From the NCBI RefSeq assembly GCF_021272385.1, contig NZ_JAJSDZ010000005.1, positions 992,001 through 1,056,000 of the forward strand: 64,000 nt of DNA, in the 5' to 3' direction. The notes beneath the pieces were generated by a model, which was not told where the DNA came from, did not search any database, and saw only the letters and a list, made by a program, of their open reading frames with translations. Shown piece by piece: positions 1,207-18,523 of the stretch (positions are counted from its first letter, which is position 1; each line of letters starts with the position of its first letter). The DNA comes from Vibrio salinus (GTDB lineage Bacteria > Pseudomonadota > Gammaproteobacteria > Enterobacterales > Vibrionaceae). Position numbers and translations under genes: made by a program.

Positions 1207-1326
1207 CACATGACATTCTTAATATTGAGACAAGAACAAAAAGATTGAATGATGTCTTAATACCCAAGATAAAAAGTGTCTATCATGGAAGTGTTTATGG
1301 TTCATCAACTTGCATCAGGGAATGTT

Positions 1327-4110
1327 ATGTCTCAGCACAAGCAAAATAAAAAAACGACCAAACGTCTTTCACTTGTCGGTTTAACTGCAACTGTCATACT
1401 TTTTACAGGCTTAGCTTATGCGGACAATTATTTAGAAAGTGCAGAAAAATACCTGAGCAATAATGAAGTTAATGCCGCTATCATCGAACTAAAAAATGCT
1501 ATTCAAAATACGCCTAAAGACGCCCAACCCAGATTGGTTCTGGGTAAGCTGTATTTACAACGGGGCAATTATGCTTCAGCCGAAAAAGAGTTATCAAGAG
1601 CCTTACATTTAGGTGCCAATAAACCGGAAGTATTACCTCTCTTGGCCAGAGCACTTTCAGATCAGGGTAAACACGAAGATGTTATTGAATTAGTGGATGA
1701 ATCCTCTATATCAAATTCCATATCGAAAGCCGAATTACTTGGACTTAAAGCCTTATCTGAAATTAATCTAGGGAACGCAGATAGTGCCAGAGCTGTATTA
1801 AAAAACATTAAAAAAGACCTCAAACAACAATCCACATATCCTCTCCTTGCTCAGGCCAGACTGGTAGCAGGAGAAAATCCAGTAAAAGCTATAAAATTGA
1901 TCAATCAGGCATTAAAAATAGCGCCGGAAAACAGCGATATATGGGTATTAAAAGGTCATCTTGAATTTGCGCAACAACAATTTAACAAAGCAACAGAAAC
2001 ATACCAAAAAGCCTATAAAATTTCTCCAGACGCTCTACATTACAGTCTCTTTATTGCCCGATCTCTTGTCTATTCAAAACACTTTGAGAAAGCTTCTCCT
2101 TATATAGATAAGGTGCTGAAAATAAGTCCAAATCATCCTCTTGCTAACGAATTAAAAGCAACCATACTTTATTCTGAAGGAAAGTATGATGATGCGAAAG
2201 AACATGCTGATAAAGCATTGAATAACGGTTCAAAAAATATAGCAACGACGCTAATATCGGCCATTTCAGCCTATAAATTAAACTTATATGAACAAGCAAA
2301 CAGAAGACTGAAACAAGTGCTCCCCCATCTTCCGGAAGACCATTTTGCCAGAAGACTTTACATTGTCACTCTGATGAAACTTGGCTATATCAATCAGGCA
2401 ATTCAAAGTATGGACAAACTGAATGTTGATTCAAAAGATAATAACCGCTTTATTTCGCAAATGAGCATAGAGCTATCCAAATTAGGTCGTGATGAAGATG
2501 CATTAACTCTGGCCTCGAAGGCTTATGATAGCGACAAGAGCAGTTCAAATGAGCTCATGTTAGGACTGGTAAAACTGGCAGATAATGATGCGACCGGCAT
2601 AAAAGAACTTCAGTCTGCCATATCAGAGCAACCCGACAAAAGAAAAGCAGAAATAGGAATTGCTTATTACTATATCAAACTGGGAAAAATTACTCAGGCA
2701 GAAGCCGTTGCAAATAAATGGCTCAAGCAAAATGCAGATGATATTGATGCTCTAACATTAAAAGGGAAAATTTATCAGTTAAAAAAACAATTTAACCTTG
2801 CCGAAAAAGAACTGAAAAAAGCCCTAAAAGTACAACCAGACTTTGTTCAGGCTAAAATAGCCCTCGCACAAGTATTAGCAAATCAAGGCAAATTCCCAGA
2901 GTCATATCAACAAGCATTTGAAGCAAAAAAAATGCTCCCTGGTGATGAGTCGGCAACTCAGGTATTAATTCTTAGCGCTAAACGCTTAAATAAAATGAAA
3001 CAGGCTTTAAGTCTTATAAACAAGCAGATTGATAATGATCCTACAAATTTAGCGCTAATACATCAAAAAGCCGAAGCCTTGGTGATCGATAACAACCCTC
3101 AAGGTGCGGCCAAACTTCTTGAAGACTTACCCGATGAAACAAAAAATGCCAAAACATGGTCTTTAATTGGTGATATTTATTACATTGAAAAACAATGGTT
3201 TAATGCACAAAGAGCATACAAAAAATGGTTAGAGATGGCACCAACAGATGCTCAGGCCTATATTCGTAACATCAGCATCAGTGAAAAAACGACAAAATTT
3301 GGCGCCGGAATAAACCTAATTAAAAAAGCCACGGAAATATTTCCAAATGATGTCCGTTTTCCTCTTATGAAAGTGGGCTTGTTAATCAAATCTAAAAAGC
3401 TGGGTCAGGCACAGCGTCTTTTAAATACGTTACCAGAAAGAATTAAAGAAACGCCTTACTCAGCCAGACTACAAGGATTAATTTACGCCCTTCAGAAAGA
3501 TTTTTCTGAAGCCGTAGCATTTCAGAAAAAAATATTTAAACATAATCCCGGGCTTGAAACCGCCAAGGATCTGGCTTCTGCATATGTTTTAAACGGGGAA
3601 AGCCAAAAAGCTATTATCTTTTTATCAAAAGTGATAAAGGACCACCCAATAAAAGGGCGTCCATTAAATATTCTTTTGGCTGATATACAAAGTAAAACTG
3701 ATCCGGAAAATGCTATTAAACTGTATGAAACTATCATAAAAAAAGAGCCTAAGAATATTATTGCACTAAATAATCTGTCATGGCTTTATATGGATAAAAA
3801 TCAATATACTAAAGCATGTCAATATTCAAAAAAAGCATTTGAATTAGCGGGGAAACAACCAGAAATAGCAGATACTCATGGCTACTGCCTTCTTAAATCG
3901 GGTAACGTAGATGAAGCGACTTCATTATTAGAAAGAGCCTACCAATTAGCAAAATCCAATTCTGAAATCGCCTTACATTACGCTGAAAGCCTGATTAAAG
4001 AAAATAAAACGGAACAAGCTCAAAATGTATTGATGGGAGTGACAACAAAGGATCCTAAACTCATAACCCTTAAGCAGGATTTAAATGAAGCAGCAATAAA
4101 CAATCAGTAG
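1327..4110 (+). CDS. prsT: XrtA/PEP-CTERM system TPR-repeat protein PrsT
   Basis: A protein of 927 aa with an N-terminal signal peptide (about residues 1-31, ending FTGLAYA) followed by tetratricopeptide repeats over the whole mature chain. The first repeat contains AAIIELKNAIQNTPKDAQ and a following LGKLYLQRGNYASAEKELSRAL, typical of PrsT, a large periplasmic or outer-membrane TPR protein found with exosortase/PEP-CTERM EPS systems. The reading frame opens 17 codons earlier at a GTG (1276), but the ATG at 1327 has CAGGGA five bases upstream and puts the signal peptide at the N-terminus. TPR arrays bind proteins, so it probably scaffolds EPS or PEP-CTERM export. A short gap leads to the protease gene, suggesting one operon. 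Confidence 0.88.
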   Translation: MSQHKQNKKTTKRLSLVGLTATVILFTGLAYADNYLESAEKYLSNNEVNAAIIELKNAIQNTPKDAQPRLVLGKLYLQRGNYASAEKELSRALHLGANKPEVLPLLARALSDQGKHEDVIELVDESSISNSISKAELLGLKALSEINLGNADSARAVLKNIKKDLKQQSTYPLLAQARLVAGENPVKAIKLINQALKIAPENSDIWVLKGHLEFAQQQFNKATETYQKAYKISPDALHYSLFIARSLVYSKHFEKASPYIDKVLKISPNHPLANELKATILYSEGKYDDAKEHADKALNNGSKNIATTLISAISAYKLNLYEQANRRLKQVLPHLPEDHFARRLYIVTLMKLGYINQAIQSMDKLNVDSKDNNRFISQMSIELSKLGRDEDALTLASKAYDSDKSSSNELMLGLVKLADNDATGIKELQSAISEQPDKRKAEIGIAYYYIKLGKITQAEAVANKWLKQNADDIDALTLKGKIYQLKKQFNLAEKELKKALKVQPDFVQAKIALAQVLANQGKFPESYQQAFEAKKMLPGDESATQVLILSAKRLNKMKQALSLINKQIDNDPTNLALIHQKAEALVIDNNPQGAAKLLEDLPDETKNAKTWSLIGDIYYIEKQWFNAQRAYKKWLEMAPTDAQAYIRNISISEKTTKFGAGINLIKKATEIFPNDVRFPLMKVGLLIKSKKLGQAQRLLNTLPERIKETPYSARLQGLIYALQKDFSEAVAFQKKIFKHNPGLETAKDLASAYVLNGESQKAIIFLSKVIKDHPIKGRPLNILLADIQSKTDPENAIKLYETIIKKEPKNIIALNNLSWLYMDKNQYTKACQYSKKAFELAGKQPEIADTHGYCLLKSGNVDEATSLLERAYQLAKSNSEIALHYAESLIKENKTEQAQNVLMGVTTKDPKLITLKQDLNEAAINNQ

Positions 4111-4140: not shown

Positions 4141-4914
4141 ATGATAAGTATGTGGAATAAATTTCGATTCTGGTCTGTTTTATGGCTATTTTTAATCGCA
4201 AAGCCTGTGTCGGCCGGATTACCAGAAACGATTCAGTCAATACAACCATCTGTTGTTGGCATAGGTACTTACAGCAGAACTCTTGCTCAGCATACCCGCT
4301 TTTTAGGAACAGGGTTCGCGGTATTAAATGGAAAATTTATCGTTACAAATGCCCATGTAATACCCACACTTCTGCATAGTAATCAGAAAGAAAAAATCGT
4401 GATATTTGCAGGAAGAGGGAAAAATCCCAACATACGAGATGCTGAAATTGTCACCATAGACCTGACCTATGATATTGCAATTCTAAAAATATCAGGTAAG
4501 GCTCTAAAACCTGTAACACTTTCAAACAGAAAAGTCAGAGAAGGCGAATCGATAGCATTTACCGGATTTCCTATTGGCGCCATTCTTGGTCTTTATCCCG
4601 TTACACATCATGGAATCATTTCATGCATTACTCCAATTGCCGTTCCTGTCAGAACGACAAAAGAACTGACCGTAAAACAGCTAATCAGACTCAAAAATCC
4701 TTACCTTGTCTACCAGCTTGATGCAACAGCTTACCCTGGGAATAGTGGAAGCCCTGTTTACGAACCAGAAACGGGAAAAGTAATAGCGATCATTAATAAA
4801 GTTTTAGTGAAATCAACGAAAGAAGCACTATTATCAGATCCAAGTGCTATCACTTATGCCATACCGGTCATATACTTAAAACACATACTAAAAAAAGTTT
4901 CGTTATCCCACTAG
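4141..4914 (+). CDS. secreted trypsin-like serine protease
   Basis: A protein of 257 aa with a signal peptide (to about residue 25, KPVSA|G). It has a complete S1/HtrA-like triad: His-72 in VTNAHV, Asp-111 in LTYDIAIL and Ser-202 in YPGNSGSP. There is no PDZ domain, unlike DegP/DegS, so it is a stand-alone periplasmic protease. It lies 30 bases after prsT and 3 bases before a VanZ-like gene, so the three are probably co-transcribed. Its substrate is not known; in this context it may process or quality-control surface proteins or EPS machinery. The start could also be the ATG at 4150; neither start has a strong Shine-Dalgarno site. Confidence 0.85.
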   Translation: MISMWNKFRFWSVLWLFLIAKPVSAGLPETIQSIQPSVVGIGTYSRTLAQHTRFLGTGFAVLNGKFIVTNAHVIPTLLHSNQKEKIVIFAGRGKNPNIRDAEIVTIDLTYDIAILKISGKALKPVTLSNRKVREGESIAFTGFPIGAILGLYPVTHHGIISCITPIAVPVRTTKELTVKQLIRLKNPYLVYQLDATAYPGNSGSPVYEPETGKVIAIINKVLVKSTKEALLSDPSAITYAIPVIYLKHILKKVSLSH

Positions 4915-4917
4915 CAC

Positions 4918-5328
4918 ATGAAAATCATAAAATTAATTCTGCTGGTTATATTTGCGTCTCTTATTGGATACGTATCCCTAAGCGGTGGAACCACACCAAA
5001 CATTCATATACCAAGCATGAATAGTTATGGAATTAACCACTTAGATAAGATCCTACATCTGCTGGCTTATCTTATATTTACCTGTTTGGGTGCTCTTATC
5101 TTCCATAAAAAGAGAAGTCTGAATCTGTATTATCTGGGGCTTTTTTTCTACAGCTTAGCCCTGGAACTGTTACAGATTCCCATGCCCCTCCGACAAGCCT
5201 CTTTCTCTGATTTATCTGCCAATATACTGGGAATACTCACTGGAATAATACTTAATTATCTTCTGAAAAAACGAATAATGTATGTTTATACACATCAAAT
5301 ATCATCTAGAAACATAAAAAAACGATAG
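4918..5328 (+). CDS. VanZ-like membrane protein
   Basis: A small integral membrane protein (136 aa) with about four hydrophobic segments. It shows VanZ-family marks: LDKILHLLAYLIFTCLGAL (the D-K-x-x-H-x-x-AY motif) and an acidic/SFSDLSANILGILTG motif near the C-terminus. VanZ proteins occur in teicoplanin resistance and, as small paralogues, in many exosortase and EPS clusters, where their role is unproven. It is the last gene of the prsT-protease-vanZ set. A strong hairpin overlaps its stop codon. A second VanZ-like gene lies in the EPS operon at 36380-36781. Confidence 0.75.
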   Translation: MKIIKLILLVIFASLIGYVSLSGGTTPNIHIPSMNSYGINHLDKILHLLAYLIFTCLGALIFHKKRSLNLYYLGLFFYSLALELLQIPMPLRQASFSDLSANILGILTGIILNYLLKKRIMYVYTHQISSRNIKKR

Positions 5329-5356
5329 CTCTGCAAAACAAACAAGAGCTATCGTT
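5321..5356. terminator. strong hairpin after the prsT operon
   Basis: A perfect 12-bp stem (AACGATAGCTCT / AGAGCTATCGTT) with a 12-base loop begins inside the last codons of the VanZ-like gene. It lies between convergent transcripts, VanZ-like on + and ThiF-like on -. The U-tract is short, so it may act as a bidirectional terminator or a 3' stabilising hairpin. Confidence 0.6.
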
Positions 5357-5390
5357 ATTAACGGGATATATCAAAAAATTATTCCTTTAT

Positions 5391-6266
5391 TTATAGTAAA
5401 TCACGTTGATCGGCAAATTTTCGTGCCGCTAACATACGTTTAATGCGTTGCAACGGACCTTTATTTCCCCAAAGCAACCTGCCTTTCCGATATAAACACC
5501 TATAGGCGTCAAACTGCATATAATGAGGCGCAGCCATTGGTGGTCGTTTATTTAGCAATATAATTAACACTTCTGATGTCAGTAACCCTGTGGCAATATC
5601 ACAGGCACAGGACAGAGAAGGTCCCGCATGATCCGATGAATCAACTTTACTGGTATCCATATAACCCCAGTGAGTTCCCCTTGGAGCAATTCCGACCGCA
5701 AAAGCTATCAGCTGATCGAACAACGCCATATCGTCTGTTATGTCAAAATAGTCCTCAAATTTCATGCCATCCGGCATAAAAACATTTAATGTTCCTGAAA
5801 ATCCTAATGGTGCAGAAAAAACAACCGGCTTGCCATGCTTTCTGGCTGAACGGTAAAGAAGCAAACGAGCCGGCATAGAAAAAAAATCTATCGCATCAAC
5901 GATTACATCGGCATTTCTAACAAAATCCTCGACATTATCGGGTTGAATACCCTTGGGAAATTGAGTGATATCAACTCCCGGATGAATATCCTTAGCCATC
6001 CCGGCCATCACTTCAACCTTTGGCCGATCAACAGTAGAGGACATCGCGCCAACCTGACGATTGATATTCTTAATGCTAAACTCGTCAAAATCAGCAATAT
6101 TGAAGGAGCCGATCCCCATTCTGACAAGATCGATCAGCTCCCGACCGCCTAATCCCCCACAACCCGCAACAGCGACCCGGGCATCTTTGAGTATATTTTG
6201 CTCTTCCTCGCTAATAAGTCCTATGTTACGAGTGACAGCAAGTCTGTAATATTCTTGAGTATCCAT
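5391..6266 (-). CDS. ThiF/MoeB/E1-like adenylyltransferase
   Basis: A protein of 291 aa with the E1-like fold. The N-terminal nucleotide-binding motif VAVAGCGGLGG (about residues 31-41) is followed by IADFDEFSIKNINRQ, with the conserved Asp and Arg that contact ATP, and by VIVDAIDFF. Family members adenylate a C-terminal carboxylate, as ThiF and MoeB do on ThiS and MoaD. The zinc-binding CxxC pairs of MoeB/ThiF are absent; only a Cys-Ala-Cys (near 223) and scattered Cys remain. It lies 65 bases downstream of the FeeM-like acyltransferase on the same strand, so the two likely form an operon. No ThiS/MoaD-like partner is nearby, so the substrate may be a small acid or lipoamino acid rather than a protein. 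Start chosen at 6266 after AAGGTGA. Confidence 0.82.
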   Translation of the reverse strand: MDTQEYYRLAVTRNIGLISEEEQNILKDARVAVAGCGGLGGRELIDLVRMGIGSFNIADFDEFSIKNINRQVGAMSSTVDRPKVEVMAGMAKDIHPGVDITQFPKGIQPDNVEDFVRNADVIVDAIDFFSMPARLLLYRSARKHGKPVVFSAPLGFSGTLNVFMPDGMKFEDYFDITDDMALFDQLIAFAVGIAPRGTHWGYMDTSKVDSSDHAGPSLSCACDIATGLLTSEVLIILLNKRPPMAAPHYMQFDAYRCLYRKGRLLWGNKGPLQRIKRMLAARKFADQRDLL

Positions 6267-6331
6267 CAGTTTCACCTTTGATTTTTTATGTAACCTAGCC
6301 AGTGATCCGATTACATCTTTAAAAAATCAGA

Positions 6332-7243
6332 TCAAAATGGGAAACGGACGCCTATTTCTTGATACTGAGCTCTTAAACAAGATAAGTCTTTATCTTCCAA
6401 AGTATCGACAAAATGTGTTTTCTCAGAAATAAAATACGTCAGTAAATCCTCAGACAATGGCTTACCTTCGCCTTTGCTACGGTTATAGCTTTCGGTAAAG
6501 AAAAAACGATGTAAGTCAGCATCAAATTCTTTTCCTGCATAAAACAACTCCGCTTTTTTATTTGCTTCTTCGATATTAAGTCTGTGCCCCTGAACCTTTA
6601 ATTTATAAGCCGCTGAGTAAGGTACTAAATCCCCAATAGGCTCGAAAAGGCATACTTTCCGGTAAAATCTGATATGCCGCTGAGTCACAGAGCAGCATAA
6701 ATCGGTAACATTTTTCATAGCAGCATATTGAAACATCAGCTTAAACATATGTAGGAAAACTTTATATTTTGAATATTCAGGATTAAGCGCAAATGCAACA
6801 ACTTCTGCCAATCTCTTTCCCTGAGAACGCATTTTCGCGATTTCTTCACCACAAAACTCTTCCATCGGCAGTCCCATCGGACTATCAAGAACTAAGCTCA
6901 CAGTACCAACAATTTTACCGTTACCTTTCTTAAATTCTTCTGGTTTTCCTGCCGCTAATTCTTCATGGTAATTAGCAATAAAAACTTTTGTATTAGGTAA
7001 TAAATGATATTTAGTAAAACGAATTCCTTCGTGATTGTTTTCCTGCAATCCCGCTTCAACGTAGTTATTCCATACCAGTCTGAAAGCATCCTCAATTTCT
7101 TGTTTTCCCACTGCAATTTTATAAGTCACAGCCTGAGATTCTTGCCTACCCTCGTCACCTTTGGAAATACGAACTTCATTACGTCTCTCAAATGGCACAG
7201 TCTTTCCGTTTAATTCAGGCTTGATAACCTTTTCTTTATTCAC
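6332..7243 (-). CDS. FeeM-like N-acyl amino acid synthase / PEP-CTERM-associated acyltransferase
   Basis: A protein of 303 aa of the GNAT-like autoinducer-synthase/FeeM superfamily. Marks are the DAFRLVWNNYVEAGLQ helix, the GTVSLVLDSPMGLPMEEFC strand-loop and the EVVAFALNPEY segment, followed by CCSVTQRHIRFYRK. FeeM makes long-chain N-acyl tyrosine from acyl-ACP, and relatives occur beside exosortase genes. The open frame runs 98 codons further upstream to 7537, but that stretch does not look like protein. A GTG at 7243 has an excellent GGAGGTG site seven bases ahead, so I start there. It precedes the E1-like gene and is divergent from the PEP-CTERM gene. Product prediction: an N-acyl amino acid; the acyl acceptor cannot be told. 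Confidence 0.8.
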   Translation of the reverse strand: MNKEKVIKPELNGKTVPFERRNEVRISKGDEGRQESQAVTYKIAVGKQEIEDAFRLVWNNYVEAGLQENNHEGIRFTKYHLLPNTKVFIANYHEELAAGKPEEFKKGNGKIVGTVSLVLDSPMGLPMEEFCGEEIAKMRSQGKRLAEVVAFALNPEYSKYKVFLHMFKLMFQYAAMKNVTDLCCSVTQRHIRFYRKVCLFEPIGDLVPYSAAYKLKVQGHRLNIEEANKKAELFYAGKEFDADLHRFFFTESYNRSKGEGKPLSEDLLTYFISEKTHFVDTLEDKDLSCLRAQYQEIGVRFPF

Positions 7244-7764: not shown

Positions 7765-7780
7765 TGGCACTATTAATGCA
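7765..7780 (+). promoter_or_regulatory. sigma-54 promoter of the PEP-CTERM gene
   Basis: TGGCAC-N5-ATGCA has the invariant GG and GC exactly ten bases apart, as in the -24/-12 consensus TGGCAC-N5-TTGCA. It predicts transcription starting near 7791, about 34 bases before the chosen start codon. The enhancer-binding activator PrsR is encoded 3 kb downstream, and RpoN/PrsK/PrsR control of PEP-CTERM genes is known in Zoogloea. This makes the site persuasive. Confidence 0.8.
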
Positions 7781-7824
7781 TAAACAAAACATGATGAAAT
7801 TAAACCCGTATGAGGAAACGATTT

Positions 7825-8721
7825 ATGTTAAGCAAGATTTTGAAACCTCTTTTAGTATGTTTTGCGTTTGTTTTATGCAGTCAGGTAAACGCACAAACAC
7901 TCAACTTAGTTGGAGTAACATGGGGAATCGATACCGACCATGACGGCGATACTTCTAATATAACTGAAGTGTCAAATTTCGACTACATCGGAGCCACATT
8001 CGTTCAATTTTCCGACAATGATGGCAGCGGATCAATAACGGAAAATGACAGCTTCACCGATTACAGTTACCTTAAGTCAAATGTAAGTGATTTTGGAGAC
8101 ATGACGGCGTCGTTTTCCAACTGGACCGGTTCTTTTGGTACATTTTATAATTTCGGAAGCGACTATTTGACAAAAGTTACTTTCGATACTGGCTCTTTGA
8201 TGACTCTCTATTCAGGTACTCAAAGTGTCATGGAGTTAGAACTTAACACAGGTAGTATTAATGTTCAGATTAATTCAGAAGGCTCTACAATTACTCAGTT
8301 TGGTCAACTTGCTTTAGAGCTTCAGGTTACCTCTGTTGAAGAAGGCTACTTTTATATAAAAATTGATGGTAACTGGGTAGATTTATACGAACTGCTCGAT
8401 GAGACCTCTTCATACTATGATATGTATGACGGTAAAGTAATCGCTGAAGTCGCAAGTACTACCCAGACGGACAATATCTCGCTGGATAATATTACCGATG
8501 AATACATCGAACAATTGGCTGCTCTGACAGGCCTGAGTGAATCTGATATAGAGAGTGCGATTGGTAATGATTTGGCCAGTGGCTATTTCGTTACCTACAA
8601 TGACGGCAACTTAGATTTGGGAGTTGTCCCTGAACCTGGAATGTTAAGTTTAATGGGGCTTGCATTTTTAGGGTTAGCTGGCTTCCAGTATAGACGTAAA
8701 ACAAAAAACTCAGAAGGCTAA
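7825..8721 (+). CDS. PEP-CTERM sorting-domain protein
   Basis: A secreted protein of 298 aa. The signal peptide is MLSKILKPLLVCFAFVLCSQ.. (cleavage near VNA|Q). The C-terminus has the full exosortase sorting signal: VVPEPG, then a hydrophobic helix MLSLMGLAFLGLAGF, then basic QYRRKTK. The mature part is acidic and rich in Ser/Thr/Asp, with calcium-loop-like stretches DTDHDGDTS and SDNDGSGSITEND. Exosortase would cut near the PEP motif and the protein would go to the surface or EPS matrix. An in-frame ATG exists at 7810, but the one at 7825 has GAGGAAA seven bases upstream. It is transcribed alone from a sigma-54 promoter and ends at a strong terminator. It is the only PEP-CTERM substrate in the window. 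Confidence 0.92.
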   Translation: MLSKILKPLLVCFAFVLCSQVNAQTLNLVGVTWGIDTDHDGDTSNITEVSNFDYIGATFVQFSDNDGSGSITENDSFTDYSYLKSNVSDFGDMTASFSNWTGSFGTFYNFGSDYLTKVTFDTGSLMTLYSGTQSVMELELNTGSINVQINSEGSTITQFGQLALELQVTSVEEGYFYIKIDGNWVDLYELLDETSSYYDMYDGKVIAEVASTTQTDNISLDNITDEYIEQLAALTGLSESDIESAIGNDLASGYFVTYNDGNLDLGVVPEPGMLSLMGLAFLGLAGFQYRRKTKNSEG

Positions 8722-8868: not shown

Positions 8869-10941
8869 TTGAACATCGCATTTGGAACCACTGGATATGT
8901 CATATCCACCGTTGGCTTTTTGTTTCTTTTTTTACTGCTACTCACCACCAGACAACAAAGTTTTCAACGTTCTTTACTCATCTTTGCTTCTCTCTCTAAT
9001 TCCGTCTGGGCTCTTAATTCATCGGTTTATTTTTACCATCACTTTTCTGTCCTATCGCTTTTACCCGTGGAAACTATCCGGAATTTAAGCTGGTTTCTAT
9101 TACTTCTCAGTTCACTTTCCAGAAAACCTAACATCAAAACTCTTATCTCGACAGATAAGGTAACCCGACAAATCATACTATTTCTAACCTCTTGCTTTTT
9201 TCTGGAAAGCTCATACTCCTGGATAGCCTGGTTACCCTATCGCTATATTATCCTGTTACACCTGGTTCAATCCTCCGTTGGACTGTGGCTAATCGAACAG
9301 TTATACCGAAGAACCACGAAACAAGATCGCTGGATGATAAAGCCAATCTGCCTTGGTCTGGGCGTTACATTTGCCTATGACTTCGCTCTTTATGCCAACG
9401 GGGTATTAACTAACAGAATCGACACGATGTTTTTCTACGGGCGAGGATGGGTCACTATCATTACTCTACCGTTGATTATCATGACAGCACGACGAGTTAA
9501 AGAATGGTCAACCCGAATCTATATTTCCCGGGATATTGTGTATAGCAGTACACTGTTAACCGTCGCCGGAATATATTTACTTATCATGGCATTTACCGGT
9601 TATTACATACGATATATTGGCGGTGATTGGGGAAATATGGTTCAGAATATCTTCTTCGCTCTCAGCGGATTAATTCTGGCCAGCTTATTTATGTCCGAGT
9701 CATTAAGAAGACAGCTAAAAGTATTTATAACCAAACATTTCTACGCCAATAAATATGAGTATCGAGAAGAGTGGACAAAATTTGCATCAACACTTGAGGA
9801 AGACGCCGACTCACCATATCAGGTATCTCTCAACGCAATGATACGTCCTTTTGACTGTGAACGGGGGATGCTTGCTATTATGGAAAATGGCAAATTAAAA
9901 AAGAAAGCATTTTATAATCAAACAGAAAAATACCCTGAGTCCGATAACATACTGGAACAACTATCAGCTAATGCTATTGAGCACCACTGGATTATTGATA
10001 TTCAGGACTTAAAAAATGAAACAACTAAGGTTCCATTTAAATTTGATTCAAATGAAATAGCATCCATAACAACATTCAGTTATATCATTCCCATTACAGA
10101 TAAAAATACCGTAAAAGCCGTGTGTTTTCTTTCTCCACCAAACTCTACTCATCATTTAAACTGGGAAGACAGGGATCTCATGTGGGCTATAAGTAAGCAA
10201 CTAGCGGTATATTTAAGTCTGTACCATACCAACAAGAAATTAACCGAAAATGAACAATTTGATACATTCAACCGAATGTCAGCTTTCCTTGCTCACGACC
10301 TGAAAAATATTCTGGCACAACTGCAATTATTATCAAAAAACGCCAAACACCATAAAGATAATCCAGAATTTATTGATGATGCTTTTGACACAATAGACTC
10401 AGCGGTTATCCGTCTGAATAAAGTTGTTGATCACCTGAAAAAGAAAAATCCACAATCCAATTCAGCAGAAGTGTTCGATGTTGAAAAAATTATTCAACAA
10501 GCATGTCATGAAAGAGAAATAGGACAACCCAATCCTACTTATGAAACAACCAGTGAGAAACCATTTTCACTCAATACAGATCGCGAACGCTTCCGAAATA
10601 TGCTTTCACATTTAATACAAAATGCCCAGGATGCAACGACACCAGAGGGCACTGTGGCTGTAAAGACATCAACATCCAAAAACGACTACGTTATTTGTAT
10701 AGAAGATAATGGGATTGGAATGAGTGAAGACTTTATCGAAAACCGATTATTCAAACCTTTTGATACGACAAAAGGAAACTCAGGAATGGGAATCGGAGCC
10801 TACGATGCAAAAAAAATGATTGAACAACTTAACGGACATATCAGCGTAGAGTCAAAAAAAGGCCAAGGCACCCGTTTTTCAATTCATATTCCTCTATCCG
10901 AATGCTCAGATAATAATACATATCTGCACTCTTCGAAGTGA
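8869..10941 (+). CDS. prsK: XrtA/PEP-CTERM system histidine kinase PrsK
   Basis: A protein of 690 aa. Residues 1-275 carry about eight or nine membrane segments. A GAF-like region follows (about 300-450), then the dimerisation/phosphoacceptor domain with His-476 in LAHDLKN, and a HATPase with the N-box NAQDAT (585), DNGIGM (613-618) and GMGIGAY (639-645). Size and layout match PrsK, partner of the sigma-54 activator PrsR. The start is a TTG with AAGGA about ten bases upstream; no better ATG fits before the first membrane helix. prsR follows after about 140 bases. The input signal is unknown; the membrane and GAF parts suggest an envelope or small-ligand cue. Confidence 0.9.
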   Translation: MNIAFGTTGYVISTVGFLFLFLLLLTTRQQSFQRSLLIFASLSNSVWALNSSVYFYHHFSVLSLLPVETIRNLSWFLLLLSSLSRKPNIKTLISTDKVTRQIILFLTSCFFLESSYSWIAWLPYRYIILLHLVQSSVGLWLIEQLYRRTTKQDRWMIKPICLGLGVTFAYDFALYANGVLTNRIDTMFFYGRGWVTIITLPLIIMTARRVKEWSTRIYISRDIVYSSTLLTVAGIYLLIMAFTGYYIRYIGGDWGNMVQNIFFALSGLILASLFMSESLRRQLKVFITKHFYANKYEYREEWTKFASTLEEDADSPYQVSLNAMIRPFDCERGMLAIMENGKLKKKAFYNQTEKYPESDNILEQLSANAIEHHWIIDIQDLKNETTKVPFKFDSNEIASITTFSYIIPITDKNTVKAVCFLSPPNSTHHLNWEDRDLMWAISKQLAVYLSLYHTNKKLTENEQFDTFNRMSAFLAHDLKNILAQLQLLSKNAKHHKDNPEFIDDAFDTIDSAVIRLNKVVDHLKKKNPQSNSAEVFDVEKIIQQACHEREIGQPNPTYETTSEKPFSLNTDRERFRNMLSHLIQNAQDATTPEGTVAVKTSTSKNDYVICIEDNGIGMSEDFIENRLFKPFDTTKGNSGMGIGAYDAKKMIEQLNGHISVESKKGQGTRFSIHIPLSECSDNNTYLHSSK

Positions 10942-11085
10942 GGGAATACAAATAGTTAGACCTAATCTATAAAGCTAACAACACCAATATCAGCCTTACA
11001 CCATAGATGTCTTATTTTTAATAATGAAGATGAGTTATATTGAGTGTATTAAATAGTTGAACAAGGAAAATAAGGCCACTGTGTG

Positions 11086-12429
11086 ATGGAAACATTACTT
11101 ATAATAGAAGATGATCCCGGTATACAGAAACAGCTAAAATGGACTTTTTCTGATTATCATGTTGTTCAGGCATACGATAGAACAGAAGCGATCAACGCGC
11201 TGCGACGGCATGAACCTAAAGTCATCACTCTCGATTTAGGCCTGCCTCCTGATCCTGATAATTCCAGCGAAGGACTGGCAACGTTAAAAGAGATTCTTGC
11301 ATTATCACCAAAGTCAAAAGTCATTGTTATTACAGGGAATGATGAAAAAGAAAACGCTCTTAAAGCCATAGAAATAGGTGCTTATGACTTTTATCCAAAA
11401 TCAATTGATAAGGATATACTGAATGTCAGCATCAATCGTGCTCTATTTTTAGCAAATATTGAACTGGAAAATGAAAATTTAAAAAAATATTCTCTGGATA
11501 AAAACGGATTTATTGGTAATAGCCCGCAAATTCAAAAAGTCTGTCACCTGATAGAACGAATTGCTCCGACAGATGTAACAACATTATTACTGGGAGAAAG
11601 TGGTACGGGTAAAGAGGTCTTAGCCAAGTCAATTCACAATCTGAGTGAAAGAGAGAAAAAACCATTTGTCGCAATCAACTGTGCATCAATACCAGAAACA
11701 TTACTCGAAAGTGAGTTGTTTGGCTATGAGCGAGGCGCATTTACCGGTGCAGTTAAAATGACAAAAGGTAAAGTGGAATGTGCCGAAGGCGGAACACTGT
11801 TTCTTGATGAAATAGGAGATATGCCAGCTCCCCTTCAAGCAAAAATTCTTCGTTTTTTGCAAGAAAAAGTAATTACCAGGGTTGGAGGGCGCGAGGATAT
11901 TCCTGTCGATGTGCGAATCATCTGTGCAACCCACCAAAATTTGCAGCAAATGGTTACAGAAAAAACATTCAGAGAAGATCTTTTTTATCGCATCAGTGAA
12001 ATAACCATTAATATCCCCCCACTCAGAGAACGGGGAGAGGATATAATTCTGCTTGCCCGATCTATTTTACATACCAGTTGTCAACAAATTAACAAACAGA
12101 TTAACGGATTTACCGACGAAGCCGTTCAGGCATTAATCCAATATTCATGGCCAGGGAATGTCAGAGAACTCCAGAACAAAATAAAAGCGGCCTGCATAAT
12201 GTCCGACGATAAAAGAATTACTGAAAAAGATCTGGTGCTTATCAATGACGAAAGCAACAAATCCAATATAGAATTAAACCTAAAAACTGTAAGAGAAAAT
12301 GCAGAAAGAGAAGCAGTTAACCGTGCTCTGTCTATCAGTAATGGGAACATGTCCAATACGGCTTGCTTACTCGGTATTACCAGACCAACCCTTTACGCCT
12401 TAATGGAAAAATATTCACTAAAAAAATAA
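11086..12429 (+). CDS. prsR: sigma-54-dependent response regulator PrsR
   Basis: A protein of 447 aa. It has a receiver domain (Asp-9/Asp-10, phosphoacceptor Asp-50 in VITLDLGLP), an AAA+ sigma-54 interaction domain with Walker A GESGTGKE (170-177) and the GAFTGA loop (217-222) that contacts sigma-54, and a C-terminal Fis-type helix-turn-helix ([22 protein letters not shown]). This is the expected layout of PrsR, partner of PrsK. It should activate -24/-12 promoters such as the one at 7765-7780. A GTG three bases earlier (11083) is an alternative start. A strong hairpin follows the gene. Confidence 0.93.
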
Positions 12430-12487
12430 CCATTAGCTGAATATCTTCCTCAATAAAATCGTGAATGGGTATATACTTATACATGAT

Positions 12488-12530
12488 ACAAAAACAACCT
12501 TTGATTAATATACTCAAAGGTTGTTTTTGT
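12488..12530. terminator. 17-bp perfect hairpin after prsR
   Basis: ACAAAAACAACCTTTGA pairs without mismatch to TCAAAGGTTGTTTTTGT across a 9-base loop. The right arm ends in TTTTTGT, so it can terminate prsR transcription. Only 30 bases separate it from the next start codon, and I see no convincing promoter there. Read-through or attenuation may therefore feed the MMPL operon. Confidence 0.8.
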
Positions 12531-12560
12531 TATTTAGAGTCTCTCCAACAGGGGGTGAAG

Positions 12561-14918
12561 ATGGATATTAAGGATAAAAACCATAGCTCTTATCTGGATA
12601 CATGGATAGTAAAAACTGTCAGGTACCCCATATTATCCATAATATTAATTTTAACTCTGATTGTCCTTGCCAGTATAGGTGCTAAGGATCTAACCTTCAG
12701 AGGAGATTACAATATCTTTTTTGATAAGGGGAATCCTCAACTACTTGAATTTAATCACATACAAGCTGAGTTTTCTAAAACAGACAATCTGGCTATCATT
12801 ATAGCTCCCCGTAATAAAAATGTTTTTACTCCCCAAACATTATCCATCATTCAAAAAATAACAAATGATGCATGGCAAACACCCTATTCAAGCCGAGTCG
12901 ACTCTCTTACTAATTACCAACATACAGAATCAGTCAGGAACGAGGAAGAAAATGAAGATGATCTTATCGTTCAGGATCTCGTCCCGGATGAATTCAGCTT
13001 TTCGGAGCAGGCAATACAGAAAATCAAACAAATAGCACTATCAGAACCCGTCACTAAAAATTCTATCGTTTCTGCCAAAGGAGACGTTGCTGTCGTAAAT
13101 ATTACGGTCCAGCTACCTGAAAAAAACAAAACCACAGAAATAGTTGAAGTTTACGATTACGTGACTAACTTACTTAGCAAGTACCAGAAACAATATCCGG
13201 ATACTGAGTTTTACCGGGCGGGCCTTGTCGCCATGAACTATTCGTTAATGGATTCCGCCCATCAGGACATCATAAAATTAGTCCCGATGATGTTGGTCGT
13301 CATTCTCATGTTTCTGATTCTATTGCTCAGATCTTTTCTCAGCGTTCTGGCTACATTGGTCGTGATCATTACATCAGTATCAGCAACACTGGGCATATCT
13401 GGCTGGCTTGGAATGTCGATAAACGTCGCAACGGTTAACATTCCAACACTAATATTAACGTTATCGGTAGCTGATTGTGTCCATATAATTTCGACAATGC
13501 GACATCAGATGCTTAATGGTGAAAATAAATCCCAAGCCATCATTCACAGTCTGAAAATCGATGTCATGCCGGTATTAATCACGTCAGTCACAACCGCTAT
13601 TGGTTTCTTGATGATGAACATGTCAGATTCTCCGGTATTAAGAACGTTTGGCACCTTGGCAGGATTAGGTGTCATGCTTGCTTGTATACTATCGTTAACC
13701 TTGCTCCCGACACTACTTTGTTTACTACCTATAAAAGCTGAATCGCCGGCAGAGAACAAAAAAACGAACCGGATTGATTATTTAAGTAATTTCATTATTA
13801 AATACAGAAAATTTCTGCTGCCAGTATCCGTAATTGTAATTATTTCAACAGCAATTTTAATTCCTCAGAATAGGATAAATGATGACTCGGTAAAATATTT
13901 CAATAAAGGGAGTGATTTTCGTCAGGTTGCTGATTTTATGCAAGATCATATTAGTGGAATGGGAACAATCAGTGTTGTCATTAACTCTTCCAGAGAGCAT
14001 GGTATCGTTGACCCTGATTTTTTAAAGACGGTGGAAAACTTTACCCGGTGGCTAAGAAAGCAACCGGAAGTCGATCATGTTTCTTCACTAACTGATATTC
14101 TCAAAAGACTTAATAAAAATATGCACGGCGATGATCGCTCTTTTTATCGTTTACCTGATAATCGGGAATTGGCTGCTCAATATTTATTAATGTACGAAAT
14201 GTCTCTCCCTTACGGACTTGATTTAAATAACCAAATAAACATAGATAAATCGGCACTTAAAATTCAGGTTACAACAGAAAACTTAGGAAGCGATAAATTT
14301 ATAGACTTGGAAAACCGAATTCACAGTTGGTTTAATCACAATAATATCAATGGAAAGGTTCATGAAATTAAAGAATCCAGCCCATCATTGATGTTTGCTC
14401 ATATTGGTGCAACCAATATGAAAAGCATGCTGATATCACTACCTATTAGCCTCATCATCATTTCAGGATTATTAGTACTGGCACTGAACTCCTTCAAACT
14501 GGGACTGTTTAGTATTATCCCCAATATGGCTCCAGCTATTATTGGGTTCGGATTATGGGCATTAATCTCAGGAGAAATCAATCTGGCACTTTCTGTGGTT
14601 GCTTCTCTAACACTTGGAATTGTCGTTGATGACTGTGTCCATTTTCTTACCAAATATCGGATAGCCAGAATCAAAGGAGAATCTCCTGAAAACGCTATTC
14701 GGTACTCATTTCATAGTGTGGGACGAGCACTATGGGTAACCTCTGTCGTACTCGTCGCTGGCTTTTCTGTACTTGCAATGTCATCGTTCAGACTGAATTC
14801 TGATATGGGTAAACTTAGCAGTATCATTATTTTTCTGGCTCTGATCATCGATTTTTTCTTTCTTCCATGTTTATTAATGATGTTCGATAAAGATAAGAAA
14901 AAAAAAGTATCAGTATAA
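12561..14918 (+). CDS. MMPL/RND-superfamily permease
   Basis: A protein of 785 aa with the duplicated RND plan: one N-terminal helix, a large periplasmic loop, then a bundle of helices, repeated in the second half. The intramembrane motifs TLSVADCVHIIST (first half) and TLGIVVDDCVHFLTKYR (second half) are those of the predicted-exporter/MMPL branch (COG1033), which moves lipids and other hydrophobic cargo using proton flow. Start chosen at 12561 after GGGGGTGAAG. The frame opens 32 codons earlier but that part overlaps the hairpin. It is followed by a LolA-like periplasmic protein and an outer-membrane barrel, a set that could span the envelope. Confidence 0.85.
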   Translation: MDIKDKNHSSYLDTWIVKTVRYPILSIILILTLIVLASIGAKDLTFRGDYNIFFDKGNPQLLEFNHIQAEFSKTDNLAIIIAPRNKNVFTPQTLSIIQKITNDAWQTPYSSRVDSLTNYQHTESVRNEEENEDDLIVQDLVPDEFSFSEQAIQKIKQIALSEPVTKNSIVSAKGDVAVVNITVQLPEKNKTTEIVEVYDYVTNLLSKYQKQYPDTEFYRAGLVAMNYSLMDSAHQDIIKLVPMMLVVILMFLILLLRSFLSVLATLVVIITSVSATLGISGWLGMSINVATVNIPTLILTLSVADCVHIISTMRHQMLNGENKSQAIIHSLKIDVMPVLITSVTTAIGFLMMNMSDSPVLRTFGTLAGLGVMLACILSLTLLPTLLCLLPIKAESPAENKKTNRIDYLSNFIIKYRKFLLPVSVIVIISTAILIPQNRINDDSVKYFNKGSDFRQVADFMQDHISGMGTISVVINSSREHGIVDPDFLKTVENFTRWLRKQPEVDHVSSLTDILKRLNKNMHGDDRSFYRLPDNRELAAQYLLMYEMSLPYGLDLNNQINIDKSALKIQVTTENLGSDKFIDLENRIHSWFNHNNINGKVHEIKESSPSLMFAHIGATNMKSMLISLPISLIIISGLLVLALNSFKLGLFSIIPNMAPAIIGFGLWALISGEINLALSVVASLTLGIVVDDCVHFLTKYRIARIKGESPENAIRYSFHSVGRALWVTSVVLVAGFSVLAMSSFRLNSDMGKLSSIIIFLALIIDFFFLPCLLMMFDKDKKKKVSV

Positions 14919-14967: not shown

Positions 14968-15792
14968 ATGAAACTCTTTTTTTTATCATGGCACATGAAG
15001 ATTGGTCGAAAAATGTTATGTACTGAAATAATATGTGCAATATTTCTTTTAACTGTTACTCCTACCGTCTTTGCTGATCAGGCCAAAGGTTTAAAGATTG
15101 CGAAAGAAAGAAAAGCCAGAGATAAAGGTTGGCTGGATAGTACAGCATCCGTCATTATGATTCTGAAAAATGCAGAAGGAGATGAAAGCAGACGAGTCAT
15201 GAGAATGAAATCACTGGAAGTTGAAAATGATGGAGATAAAGGACTGACAATCTTCGATGAACCACGGGATGTCCAGGGAACAGCATTCCTGACTTATTCA
15301 CATATCACCGGAGCTGATGATCAATGGCTTTATCTTCCAGCTCTCAAACGGGTCAAAAGAATTTCTTCGCGAAATAAATCCGGACCATTTATGGGTAGTG
15401 AGTTTTCATATGAAGATCTGAGTTCATTTGAAATCGGAAAATATCATTTCAATTATTTACGAGACGAAACCATCAGCGGTCAACCTTGCTTTGTGGTTGA
15501 AGAAAAGCCCCTTGATAAAATGTCTGGTTATACAAAACTTATCACCTGGGTTAATAAATCGGAATACGTGCCGATGAAAGTGGAATACTTCGACCGCAAA
15601 CATACCAAATTAAAAACATTGATTTTAACAGATTATAAGCAATATCTTAATAAATACTGGCGAGCATTAACTCTGAAAATGACCAACCATCAGACAGGAA
15701 AAATTACGATTCTAAAAACGAGTAATATTGAGTTTCAAACGGGCTTAAAAGAAAGAGATTTTAATAAGAATATTCTCAAACGAGTAAGATAA
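14968..15792 (+). CDS. LolA-like outer-membrane lipoprotein-sorting family protein
   Basis: A protein of 274 aa, exported (signal segment about residues 15-36, ending VFA|D). The mature chain matches the LolA-like family that accompanies MMPL permeases: RVMRMKSLEVENDGDKGLTIFDEP, then DDQWLYLPALKRVKRISSRNKSGPFMGSEFSYEDLSSF, and a C-terminal WRALTLKMTNHQTGKITILK strand. The family fold is an open half-barrel that binds acyl chains, so it probably carries a lipid-like cargo across the periplasm between the permease and the outer membrane. It has a strong AGGAGGA site before the ATG. Confidence 0.85.
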   Translation: MKLFFLSWHMKIGRKMLCTEIICAIFLLTVTPTVFADQAKGLKIAKERKARDKGWLDSTASVIMILKNAEGDESRRVMRMKSLEVENDGDKGLTIFDEPRDVQGTAFLTYSHITGADDQWLYLPALKRVKRISSRNKSGPFMGSEFSYEDLSSFEIGKYHFNYLRDETISGQPCFVVEEKPLDKMSGYTKLITWVNKSEYVPMKVEYFDRKHTKLKTLILTDYKQYLNKYWRALTLKMTNHQTGKITILKTSNIEFQTGLKERDFNKNILKRVR

Positions 15793-15822
15793 CTGCACAT
15801 AACGTATATGGAAAGAAAGAAC

Positions 15823-17019
15823 ATGTTTTCTATCAATCCTATTGTATCTGTTTTCGCTATTACCGGGATTTCATTTCTATGTCAGGCTCAGGAAAAATCC
15901 GTCTTAGAACCGGAGCTTAGTGGACAGGTAAACTTTGAATACCGACAATTTTTCAAAGAAGGGAATGACTCTCAGGATAAAGAGCAGCCATCGGCTGTGA
16001 TGAAACCGGAATTATACTGGAGCTTTAATGATGACAACTCCAGTATTACCTTCACCCCTTTTTATCGCTATGATCACATGGACAGCGAAAGAACTCATGC
16101 AGATATACGAGAATTAAAATATCTTACTTATTGGGATGACTATGAGCTCAGAGTTGGCATTAATAAAGTTTTTTGGGGAGTTACCGAGTCAGAGCATTTA
16201 GTTGATGTCATTAATCAAACAGATTCAATTGAGTCTGTTGATGGTGAAGATAAACTGGGTCAGCCAATGATCCAGTTTACCGCTATCAAAGACTGGGGTG
16301 TCACAGAATTCTACCTACTGCCGTATTTCAGAGAAAGAACATTTCCTGGTTCAAAAGGTCGGTTGAGAACCACGATTCCTATTAATACGGACAAAGCACA
16401 ATATGAGTCATCTGACAAACAAAAACATATCGATTATGCAGCCAGGTATTCAAATACTCTTGGAGAATGGGATATAGGAGTCAGTTATCTTCATGGAACA
16501 GACAGAGAACCATACTTAATTTCTCAGGGAGCAGAACTAATTCCATACTATGCTCAGATGAAACATGCCGGAGTTGATATACAAGGAACCATGGGAAGCT
16601 GGCTGTGGAAACTTGAAGCGGTTTACAAAGACAGCTACAAAAACTATACGTCGACAGATAGTGGATTTGAATACACTCTTGTTGGTGTTTTCAATACGGT
16701 TTGGGATTTAGGACTCCTCTCCGAATATTTATATGATTCACGGGGGGAAGACTCTTTAGCGATAGGACAAAACGATGTCTTTGCCGCTTTCAGACTCTCA
16801 CTAAATGACGAAGATAGCACTGAAATGCTATTTGGAATGACACAAGATCTGGATAACAGTGATGTCCGTCTATATAAGTTGGAGGCATCGACAAGGTTGA
16901 CCAACGAACTCAGCCTTAGTATTGACGCATGGGCGAGTGAAAACCGCACGACGACTGACCCACTTTATTCTATTAGAAACGATGACTTCATCCAGATGGC
17001 CATAGAATATTATTTTTAG
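15823..17019 (+). CDS. outer-membrane beta-barrel protein, function unknown
   Basis: A protein of 398 aa with a signal peptide (ending FLCQA|Q). Alternating aromatic/polar strands run throughout and the C-terminus is an outer-membrane signature (MAIEYYF, terminal Phe). Strand pairs such as YELRVGINKVFWGVTESEHLVDVINQTD resemble the barrels encoded after MMPL/LolA-like genes. It is the third gene of that set, 30 bases after the LolA-like gene, and probably acts with it in the outer membrane. Start chosen at 15823, preceded by GGAAAGAAAG, rather than at 15808. I do not recognise a named family with certainty. Confidence 0.7.
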   Translation: MFSINPIVSVFAITGISFLCQAQEKSVLEPELSGQVNFEYRQFFKEGNDSQDKEQPSAVMKPELYWSFNDDNSSITFTPFYRYDHMDSERTHADIRELKYLTYWDDYELRVGINKVFWGVTESEHLVDVINQTDSIESVDGEDKLGQPMIQFTAIKDWGVTEFYLLPYFRERTFPGSKGRLRTTIPINTDKAQYESSDKQKHIDYAARYSNTLGEWDIGVSYLHGTDREPYLISQGAELIPYYAQMKHAGVDIQGTMGSWLWKLEAVYKDSYKNYTSTDSGFEYTLVGVFNTVWDLGLLSEYLYDSRGEDSLAIGQNDVFAAFRLSLNDEDSTEMLFGMTQDLDNSDVRLYKLEASTRLTNELSLSIDAWASENRTTTDPLYSIRNDDFIQMAIEYYF

Positions 17020-17041: not shown

Positions 17042-18523
17042 TCATTCCTCACCAGAAGAATTAAAGCAGCCATGTCTATTAATAAATGCTCCAATAAATT
17101 TGTCTTTTCCCGTGATTGTTTTTCCACAAAAATCGGTCAGATACTCATCATTTTTAACTGGATATGAAACGGCATTTTTCTTAATATCTAAGCTCTTATC
17201 CGTAATACTAAAGTTTCCGGTTTCAGGTGACTGAAACATATCTGTTAATGCGTCTTTATTTGTAAAAAAATCTCGGGGAAAAATTATATTTCCTGAATTC
17301 GAAATAATTTTTCCTTGATCCCGAGATCTTAATTTGCCACTAAATAAATTATTAACAACCAGAGCACTACTCTGAGGGAATCGAATATCAATTCCAGAAG
17401 TGTTATACAATGTATTATTATTTATAACACTATTCTTCCCGCTATTAACATAAATTCCGACGTCACTACAATGAAAAATGATATTATTTCTAATCGTAGT
17501 GTGATTAGCCTGATATGCAACTCCACCTCTTCTATCTGGCATACCACCACCGCCAATTGACAGACCTACCGAGGCCCCTGGATACTGTTTCTCTGAGGTA
17601 TTACAAATAACCAGATTATTCTCAAACACACCATTATTTGCACCACCTTTCATAAAAGCACCATAGCTAATTTTATTTCCTCCAATTTTAATAAAGTCAC
17701 GAATGATATTATAAGAAACCAACCAATCATTAGCATGGTCAATATTAATAGGAGTAACAGAAAATTTAGTGTCTCTGGGTTTAGTATAATAAAAATGGTT
17801 ATACTCTACCTTCCCTCTATCCGGATATGCTCCAGCCCTTTTATTCACTTTAATTGCTGCATTAAAATCCACAAAATCATTGTTTGTAATTTCAATATCG
17901 TGAGCATTTCCAACAATATGTACAGCATGTTCACATGAGTTATGATTACTGCACGTTCCTATAAATTTAAAACCCGTAATTGTCCAATAAGGTTTATTCA
18001 GAAAAATTCCTTCCAGTGTATTCATTAATAAGCTGGCTTTCCCTGGGTGTTCAGCTTTCACTACCACCGGTAACGATTTTGTTGGTATTTTATTGCTGGT
18101 AGGAAAACGCTTTGAATTTAATATGTACTCACCATCAGCAACGACAATGGTACTACCAGGCTCTACTTTCTTAAGTGCTTCCATGAATTGTTTTGAGTCA
18201 GACACATAAATTTGCTGAGAAGGGCTTTTTACTACCACCGGAGGAGATTTAAAATCAGGTCCCACCGTTGGCCACTGACTTCTGTCAAAAGGCTTCCAGT
18301 AATACATAGGTGTAATCAAGCTCTTTCCAGCTTGATTTAGAACATCAGCCACGGGTTTTGTCACAGAATGACGGGCAAACTTATTTGCGGTATGAAAAAG
18401 AACTGTTGGTAAAGATTGATCTTCAAACAGAATCCTTCCAAAAGAATAAACTGAATATCCCAATACCAGATTAAATACAATACCAGTCAGAATCAGATAT
18501 TTTTTAATCAACACAGGTATCAT
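17042..18523 (-). CDS. membrane-anchored right-handed beta-helix protein, possible polysaccharide lyase
   Basis: A protein of 493 aa with an N-terminal signal anchor (LILTGIVFNLVLGYSVYSF). It then has a chondroitinase-B-like entry (ADGEYILNSKRF..) and a long series of parallel beta-helix turns with Asn ladders (NHTTIRNNIIFHC, KNSVINNNTLYNT, HDIEITNNDFVDF). This fold is used by uronate-polymer lyases and epimerases (PL6 and relatives). The polymer predicted for this locus contains uronic acids, so trimming or modification of the EPS is a reasonable guess. I could not assign the catalytic Lys/Arg pair with confidence. It is convergent with the barrel gene (22-base gap). AAGGATAG precedes the ATG. 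Confidence 0.7.
   Translation of the reverse strand: MIPVLIKKYLILTGIVFNLVLGYSVYSFGRILFEDQSLPTVLFHTANKFARHSVTKPVADVLNQAGKSLITPMYYWKPFDRSQWPTVGPDFKSPPVVVKSPSQQIYVSDSKQFMEALKKVEPGSTIVVADGEYILNSKRFPTSNKIPTKSLPVVVKAEHPGKASLLMNTLEGIFLNKPYWTITGFKFIGTCSNHNSCEHAVHIVGNAHDIEITNNDFVDFNAAIKVNKRAGAYPDRGKVEYNHFYYTKPRDTKFSVTPINIDHANDWLVSYNIIRDFIKIGGNKISYGAFMKGGANNGVFENNLVICNTSEKQYPGASVGLSIGGGGMPDRRGGVAYQANHTTIRNNIIFHCSDVGIYVNSGKNSVINNNTLYNTSGIDIRFPQSSALVVNNLFSGKLRSRDQGKIISNSGNIIFPRDFFTNKDALTDMFQSPETGNFSITDKSLDIKKNAVSYPVKNDEYLTDFCGKTITGKDKFIGAFINRHGCFNSSGEE

Follow-up and report, generated by a model that had tools for sequence, protein, structure and literature searches.

A FeeM-family synthase and an E1-like enzyme beside the XrtA/PEP-CTERM genes of Vibrio salinus: a candidate desaturase-less variant of the acyl-oxazolone pathways

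Background

The OxzAB, Tyz and Trz pathways combine a FeeM-like acyltransferase, a ThiF-type cyclase and a flavin oxidase of the nitroreductase superfamily (FDO) to produce acyl-oxazolones: an amino acid acylated by OxzA, TyzA or TrzA is cyclised by the ThiF part using ATP and then desaturated by the FDO, as described in the accessible text of two reports (PMC10404671, PMC12856293). According to the available part of the second, TrzS yields a cyclised saturated intermediate under limited oxygen or as the R540A variant (PMC12856293), so that cyclisation is possible without desaturation. Genes encoding an N-acyl amino acid synthase (NAS), a ThiF protein and a nitroreductase are also present in producers of N-acyl dehydrotyrosines, as stated in the excerpt available (PMC12479983). 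A further model, TIGR03694, is an exosortase-associated acyltransferase according to its NCBIfam description.

Here we analyze a gene pair of Vibrio salinus in a window, which is the whole stretch of 64,000 nucleotides under study (contig NZ_JAJSDZ010000005.1, positions 992,001 to 1,056,000). The initial annotation had proposed that the two genes make an acyl amino acid and then activate its carboxyl group, and that such a pathway would be new. The chemistry stands as the best reading, but the novelty does not, because OxzAB, TyzABC and TrzAS are already known from the portions of the literature available; by analogy with them, the outline of the proposed pathway is of a known kind. N-acyl amino acid synthases have reportedly been tied to the PEP-CTERM/exosortase system by Craig et al. 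2011. In the literature text available we found no statement on a ThiF partner or on LolA/MMPL export for exosortase-linked synthases, and the open-access literature, which de Rond 2021 and Craig 2011 lie outside, returned neither an exosortase link of a ThiF cyclase nor a LolA-like/MMPL link nor an FDO-less branch; in the accessible text, exosortase and oxazolone occur once each in PMC8776678, and exosortase and ThiF once each in PMC7962754.

Results

Identity of the two genes

The pair consists of the following genes.

5391..6266, reverse strand: E1-like (ThiF-fold) adenylyltransferase/cyclase of the PRK08223 family, 291 aa from the ATG at 6266
6332..7243, reverse strand: 303-aa N-acyl amino acid synthase of the FeeM family, from the GTG start at 7243 to the stop at 6332

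Both open reading frames lie as first annotated, 65 bases apart on one strand. This gap implies the ATG at 6266, which is preceded on its 5' side by AAAGG; the alternative GTG at 6275 would give 294 aa and a gap of 56 bases. The GTG of the FeeM gene has GGAGG six bases 5' of it.

Both proteins are assigned to their families with profile scores far beyond what chance would give. The FeeM-family protein matches PF21926 with 140 bits, over the curated cut-off of 27; FeeM (2g0b) is its sole PDB sequence match (E 8e-11) and is also matched in fold (E 3e-12) by its model, which is of low confidence (pLDDT 60, four sequences). It has no match to TIGR03694 (exosort_acyl) at E 0.001, and the window genome has none at E 1e-10. 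The E1-like protein matches PF00899 with 160 bits (cut-off 28) and NF006077, the PRK08223 model, with 349.5 bits, over the curated cut-off of 266; among other NCBIfam models it scores 316 bits with PRK14851 and 244 with PRK14852. Its scores are weaker with ThiF (108), MoeB-type (up to 91), TcdA (69) and Rv1355c/TrzS-type (PRK07877, 67) models, and they stay under the curated cut-offs for ThiF/MoeB (TIGR02356, 108 against 275; TIGR02355, 69 against 377) and for TcdA (68.5 against 304). PRK14852, a model of 989 positions, aligns with the window FeeM protein at 30-234 and with the window E1 at 303-588; since it covers both, it suggests that natural FeeM-E1 fusions exist. An FDO-fused relative (L067) matches PRK08223 and aligns with 23-669 of the 679 positions of PRK14851, below the cut-off of that model.

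Two zinc-binding CxxC motifs are a feature of the ThiF/MoeB activators. The window E1 has four cysteines and zero CxxC, and among 59 aligned relatives, considering the E1 domain only, one CxxC is found in 40 and two in none. The initial description of the enzyme as a zinc-less E1 without the two motifs is thus borne out, with none in the window and at most one per relative (n=59); as no relative has two, the absence of zinc CxxC pairs is, on this alignment, a trait of the whole E1 family. The residues G38, G40, G41, G43, D64, N70, N72, R73, Q74, K86 and D127 are invariant across the 60-row alignment and D130 is present in 98% of it, and the window E1 carries every one of these adenylation residues. 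D130 is probably the counterpart of the TrzS Asp whose Ala variant lost cyclisation, according to the accessible text of that report (PMC12856293). The alignment leaves out two of the 61 loci (L024 and L079), for which a short match had been chosen; missing from the tree as well is L105 (G225), which is below the family cut-off and absent from every locus count. One in-frame stop (TGA or TAG) was noted for the E1 match in each of G416, G194, G184 and G182.

The window E1 is divergent, with a best identity of 46% over 289 columns, and in the tree it sits on a long branch with the FDO-less G354 and G126 (93/94, then 92/49), outside the starred groups. Its AlphaFold model (pLDDT 81) fits the folds of AclA, ThiF and MoeB about equally (Z 22.8-22.4). 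The other two PF00899 proteins of the window genome, scanned as fragments, resemble ThiF/MoeB and TcdA most, with scores that narrowly miss the curated cut-offs. A defence-type E1-E2 system was discarded, since the best PADLOC match reaches 47 bits and covers the protein in part only.

Recurrence of the pair

Above its cut-off, PRK08223 is found in 40 of 369 genomes of the class, the window genome included. Within the genus it occurs in 1 of 37 genomes and is not a genus trait; five other matches in the genus, of about 127 aa and with E 1e-20 to 1e-22, are probably of the TcdA type. The 42 related loci considered here, which exclude the window, come from the 39 other E1 genomes of the class and from three genomes of the order (G045, G050, G056), and the stretches fetched extend up to 6 kb on each side of the E1 gene, less at contig ends. 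Acyltransferase and FDO domains were called at these loci with locally iterated profiles, checked for a few with NCBIfam or Pfam.

An acyltransferase domain is present in the stretch at 30 of the 42 loci; at 21 it is within 1 kb of the E1, and at 11 it is no more than 500 nt away and codirectional with it. An FDO is present at 25 and lies in the same open reading frame as the E1 at 13. One or both are found at 37 loci and neither at five. The co-occurrence check suggested with the initial annotation shows, therefore, that the pair recurs far beyond the window genome (acyltransferase within 1 kb at 21/42 loci), contrary to the first refuting condition given with that annotation, and a chance pairing of FeeM and E1 was rejected on this recurrence across genomes and loci. 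In G126 and G354 no acyltransferase was found genome-wide with TIGR03694 and PF21926; the G354 contig stops 234 bases 5' of the E1.

Eight E1 loci (L066, L074, L078, L080, L083, L085, L102 and L016) carry two acyltransferase genes of the exosort_acyl/FeeM type, perhaps for different acyl or amino acid substrates. In a Bacteriovorax FeeM protein (L022:11663-12886) about 200 residues C-terminal of the FeeM domain have no Pfam match.

The FDO

No FDO is fused or adjacent to the window E1, unlike in the acyl-oxazolone pathways, and none was found in the window genome by a single FDO query, by a profile of 19 FDO sequences or by a PF00881 survey, whose only match there is an NfsA-type nitroreductase (375 bits). 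Genome-wide, the single query matches in 23 of the 43 E1 genomes, partially in G413, at a contig end. The 19-sequence profile, run on 22 of the 43 (20 without a match and two with weak ones), added full matches in G182 and G403 and partial ones in G282 and G306. In all, 25 of the 43 have an FDO, two have a partial one and 16, the window genome among them, have none or matches of at most 27 residues. In 14 of these 16, window included, an acyltransferase is no more than 10 kb away from the E1; the exceptions are G126 and G354. Since the FDO-less rows are scattered over several places of the E1 tree, FDO losses look repeated.

Exosortase genes and a candidate export route

The window genome carries an XrtA/PEP-CTERM set with exosortase, PrsT, PrsK, PrsR and a PEP-CTERM protein all present. 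The features around the pair are listed below.

G000:C5:973804-974550, some 17 kb ahead of the window: exosortase
1276..4110, forward strand: PrsT, the TPR protein of the XrtA/PEP-CTERM system (TIGR02917, 589 bits, cut-off 312)
4141..4914, forward strand: trypsin-like serine protease (PF13365, 77 bits), probably secreted, as its N terminus suggests
5316..5356, reverse strand: likely intrinsic terminator 3' of the E1 gene, 12-bp stem and a run of 7 T
7810..8721, forward strand: PEP-CTERM protein (PF07589, 25.1 bits, cut-off 20.7)
8869..10941, forward strand: PrsK histidine kinase (TIGR02916, 634 bits, cut-off 300)
11083..12429, forward strand: PrsR sigma-54 response regulator (TIGR02915, 704 bits, cut-off 503)
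12465..14918, forward strand: MMPL-family exporter, proposed lipid carrier (PF03176, 135 bits)
14968..15792, forward strand: LolA-like outer-membrane lipoprotein-sorting protein (PF17131, 217 bits)
15808..17019, forward strand: 403-aa protein 3' of the LolA-like gene, with no Pfam match and no relative in the E1 stretches; by eye, a possible secreted outer-membrane protein

For the region 5310-5372 a folding energy of -18.7 kcal/mol was obtained (z -6.6), which 0 of 200 shuffles equalled, and the terminator overlaps the 3' end of a convergent VanZ gene (stop at 5328); a pattern scan for terminators with loops of 3-8 only did not report this hairpin. Near PrsR, a sigma-54-like -24/-12 site with one mismatch lies at 7765-7780 on the forward strand, 30 bases 5' of the PEP-CTERM gene at 7810. 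One such site was counted against a chance mean of 1.73 for the window, and the promoter scan scored below the shuffle mean. Relatives of the serine protease occur in 6 of the 61 E1 stretches, directly divergent from the E1 in two (L014:7110-7919, L106:5117-5899), 2 kb from it in one (L097:4043-4831) and farther off in three more. Directly 3' of the E1 at two loci are PEP-CTERM proteins of the THxN family (L014:8996-10003, L027:2477-3484). By eye, a repeat-helix-like secreted protein is encoded at 17042-18523 on the reverse strand of the window and a long run of polysaccharide genes occupies 18783-41753, both located past the exosortase regulators.

Exosortase (PF09721) is found in 38 of the 40 E1 genomes of the class and in 87 of the 329 without E1 (Fisher p 8e-18, kinship ignored); G158 and G418 are the E1 genomes without it, and G045, G050 and G056 are outside that draw. 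TIGR03694 at E 1e-10 is found in 29 of the 40 against 28 of the 329 (Fisher p 1e-18, kinship ignored), a count of 57 genomes of which 46 are over the model's cut-off.

The window MMPL and LolA-like genes lie directly behind PrsK and PrsR, 6-9 kb from the E1 and on the opposite strand. In 22 of 43 genomes a PF17131 gene is at most 10 kb from the E1, whereas uniform placement, calculated with rounded genome sizes, predicts 0.53. LolA-like and MMPL genes also stand near the E1 in G126 and in the Bacteriovorax contig L022, which has a FeeM gene at its distal end. MMPL relatives occur in 15 of the 61 E1 stretches, that of L014 being weaker and perhaps of another RND type. Of the FDO-less loci, 9 of 15 have one in the stretch, against 3 of 25 loci with FDO (p 0.003, post hoc and with kinship ignored), or 7 of 12 against 2 of 18 when stretches cut by contig ends are removed (p 0.013, post hoc). 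LolA-like genes are not commoner at FDO-less loci (8/15) than at loci with FDO (10/25).

The LolA-like gene might be a mere part of any exosortase island, but a control did not bear this out: 4 of 80 E1-negative against 7 of 43 E1-positive genomes with the exosortase set have such a gene at most 30 kb from a listed exosortase, and among the four, G151 and G265 also carry TIGR03694 nearby. The control covers 80 of the 87 E1-negative exosortase genomes, those with weak exosortase matches (G065, G092, G122, G157, G277, G323, G414) being dropped; it was made among the exosortase positions listed, with part of the exosort_acyl matches, and left out eight weak LolA matches (E 7e-19 or weaker; G096, G151, G272), none of them within 30 kb of a listed exosortase. 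On this control, the LolA-like link is closer to the E1 and acyltransferase than to the exosortase.

Discussion

The gene families, the kept residues, the gene order, the recurrence, the links with exosortase and LolA-like/MMPL genes and the failure to find an FDO are established, and the explanation that we favour builds on them. The pair is, with a probability of roughly 0.6, a desaturase-less variant of the acyl-oxazolone pathways tied to the XrtA/PEP-CTERM system, with a saturated oxazolone as predicted product. The FeeM enzyme would N-acylate an amino acid, which may be aromatic, with a fatty acyl group; the E1-like enzyme would then adenylate the carboxylate of the N-acyl amino acid with ATP, and attack of the amide oxygen on the acyl-AMP would close the 5(4H)-oxazolone ring. 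We infer these substrates and the cyclisation, as well as the export and any surface-polymer role considered below. Because no FDO is recognisable in the genome, a saturated oxazolone, or the product of its hydrolysis or of attack by an amine, would be expected rather than a dehydro-oxazolone; the saturated ring could be a reactive end product or an intermediate. The MMPL exporter and the LolA-like protein would finally move the lipid to the outer envelope, and the product is best read as a surface lipid or a reactive acyl donor.

Against this explanation stands the failure to find in the window genome an FDO, a defining part of the known pathway. Moreover, the window E1 is divergent and on a long branch whose other members, G126 and G354, have no acyltransferase that we could find, the MMPL and LolA-like genes are 6-9 kb away on the other strand, and LolA-like genes are not commoner at FDO-less loci. 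In the accessible text on stieleriacine, kyonggic acid and thalassotalic acid, no acyl-oxazolone is recorded despite the ThiF genes of the producers (PMC12479983). The same text, where clusters of NAS, ThiF and nitroreductase go with N-acyl dehydrotyrosines and no oxazolone is seen, speaks for a distinctly unlikely alternative, in which the E1 serves the desaturation or tailoring of N-acyl amino acids, as may be the case for dehydrotyrosine lipids such as the stieleriacines, with no oxazolone product, and an unrecognised desaturase replaces the FDO; the FDO profile is empty in the window genome and no other oxidase was noted beside the pair, which argue against it.

The lack of a recognisable FDO in 16 of the 43 E1 genomes, 14 of which have an acyltransferase within 10 kb, together with the link between E1 and exosortase genes, speaks for a transfer to an acceptor: the E1 would activate the N-acyl amino acid but release no oxazolone, and the acyl-AMP, or an enzyme-bound oxazolone, would be passed to an amine or hydroxyl. 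This would join the acyl-aminoacyl group to an EPS sugar, to a PEP-CTERM protein or to an amine of the envelope; attachment to EPS or a protein was the idea of the initial annotation. Saturated azlactones acylate amines, which also counts in favour of this reading. The FDO-bearing relatives make free lipids, however, and no conserved extra transferase was found among the families tracked. According to the available text on Methylomonas LW13, a strain mutated in an N-acyl amino acid synthase linked to exosortase does not form its distinct polysaccharide band, which complementation restores, but the strain also failed to grow in the set-up, and growth failed likewise in two unrelated mutants that lacked the band (PMC11072679); the band may thus reflect growth, and we take its loss as a hint that carries no mechanism. 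On balance transfer to an acceptor is unlikely. Also unlikely, and tentative, is a role in the FDO-less branch of the saturated azlactone as a reactive acyl-amino-acid donor that crosses the envelope and acylates the surface polymer, PEP-CTERM proteins or other amines.

A classic E1 role, i.e. activation of a ubiquitin-like or sulfur-carrier protein encoded elsewhere, with the FeeM adjacency incidental, is highly improbable. The fold and the adenylation residues are as in ThiF/MoeB, but the scores are far under the cut-offs of those models, zinc CxxC pairs are lacking and adjacency or fusion to acyltransferase and FDO recurs. In addition, the small open reading frames of the window locus (45-140 aa, ATG start, within 3 kb) gave 0 BLAST matches (1e-6) among those of the 42 other loci. 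On the low ThiF/MoeB scores, the missing CxxC pairs and the lack of a shared small frame within 3 kb of the window locus, activation of a ubiquitin-like protein was rejected as the main reading.

Returning to the desaturase-less oxazolone pathway, a ThiF cyclase and a LolA-like/MMPL route beside the synthases suggest a testable route in which a lipid would be made inside the cell, cyclised or activated, and exported to the surface. The desaturase-less branch raises the question of how the cell would use a saturated oxazolone, given its reactivity. Should the lipid assist the formation of a surface polymer, this would bear on floc and biofilm formation, with the growth confounder attached to the Methylomonas hint in the available text (PMC11072679).

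Comparison with known systems

The top fold match of the window E1 is AclA from Tenacibaculum discolor (PDB 9egb; Z 22.8), a ThiF-fold enzyme solved with substrate, for which the literature search returned no paper; it is tied with ThiF and MoeB as a fold match and is 20% identical to the window E1. The exosortase-linked synthases, in the available descriptions (Craig et al. 2011; TIGR03694), are likewise N-acyl amino acid synthases in exosortase genomes; the window FeeM protein differs from them in having no match to exosort_acyl TIGR03694. In the clusters for stieleriacine, kyonggic acid and thalassotalic acid, NAS and ThiF genes are close together as at the window; these clusters include a nitroreductase, and the accessible text records no oxazolone detected (PMC12479983).

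OxzA and OxzB of Pseudoalteromonas rubra, as far as the available account goes (de Rond et al. 2021), are likewise an N-acyl amino acid synthase beside a ThiF-type cyclising enzyme. OxzB is reportedly a ThiF-FDO fusion, whereas the window E1 stands alone in a genome where no FDO was found. The window pair has exosortase, MMPL and LolA-like genes in its surroundings. The systems of Mycobacterium tuberculosis have an FDO in the accessible text, either separate (TyzC) or fused in TrzS, unlike the window (PMC10404671, PMC12856293), and the window E1 is nearer to PRK08223/PRK14851 than to PRK07877, the model of TrzS (Rv1355c). In TyzABC, as the available text describes it, TyzA has a FeeM-like fold and TyzB is a stand-alone ThiF cyclase, as at the window, and the tyz cluster is flanked by mmpL9, which can be compared with the MMPL gene of the window (PMC10404671).
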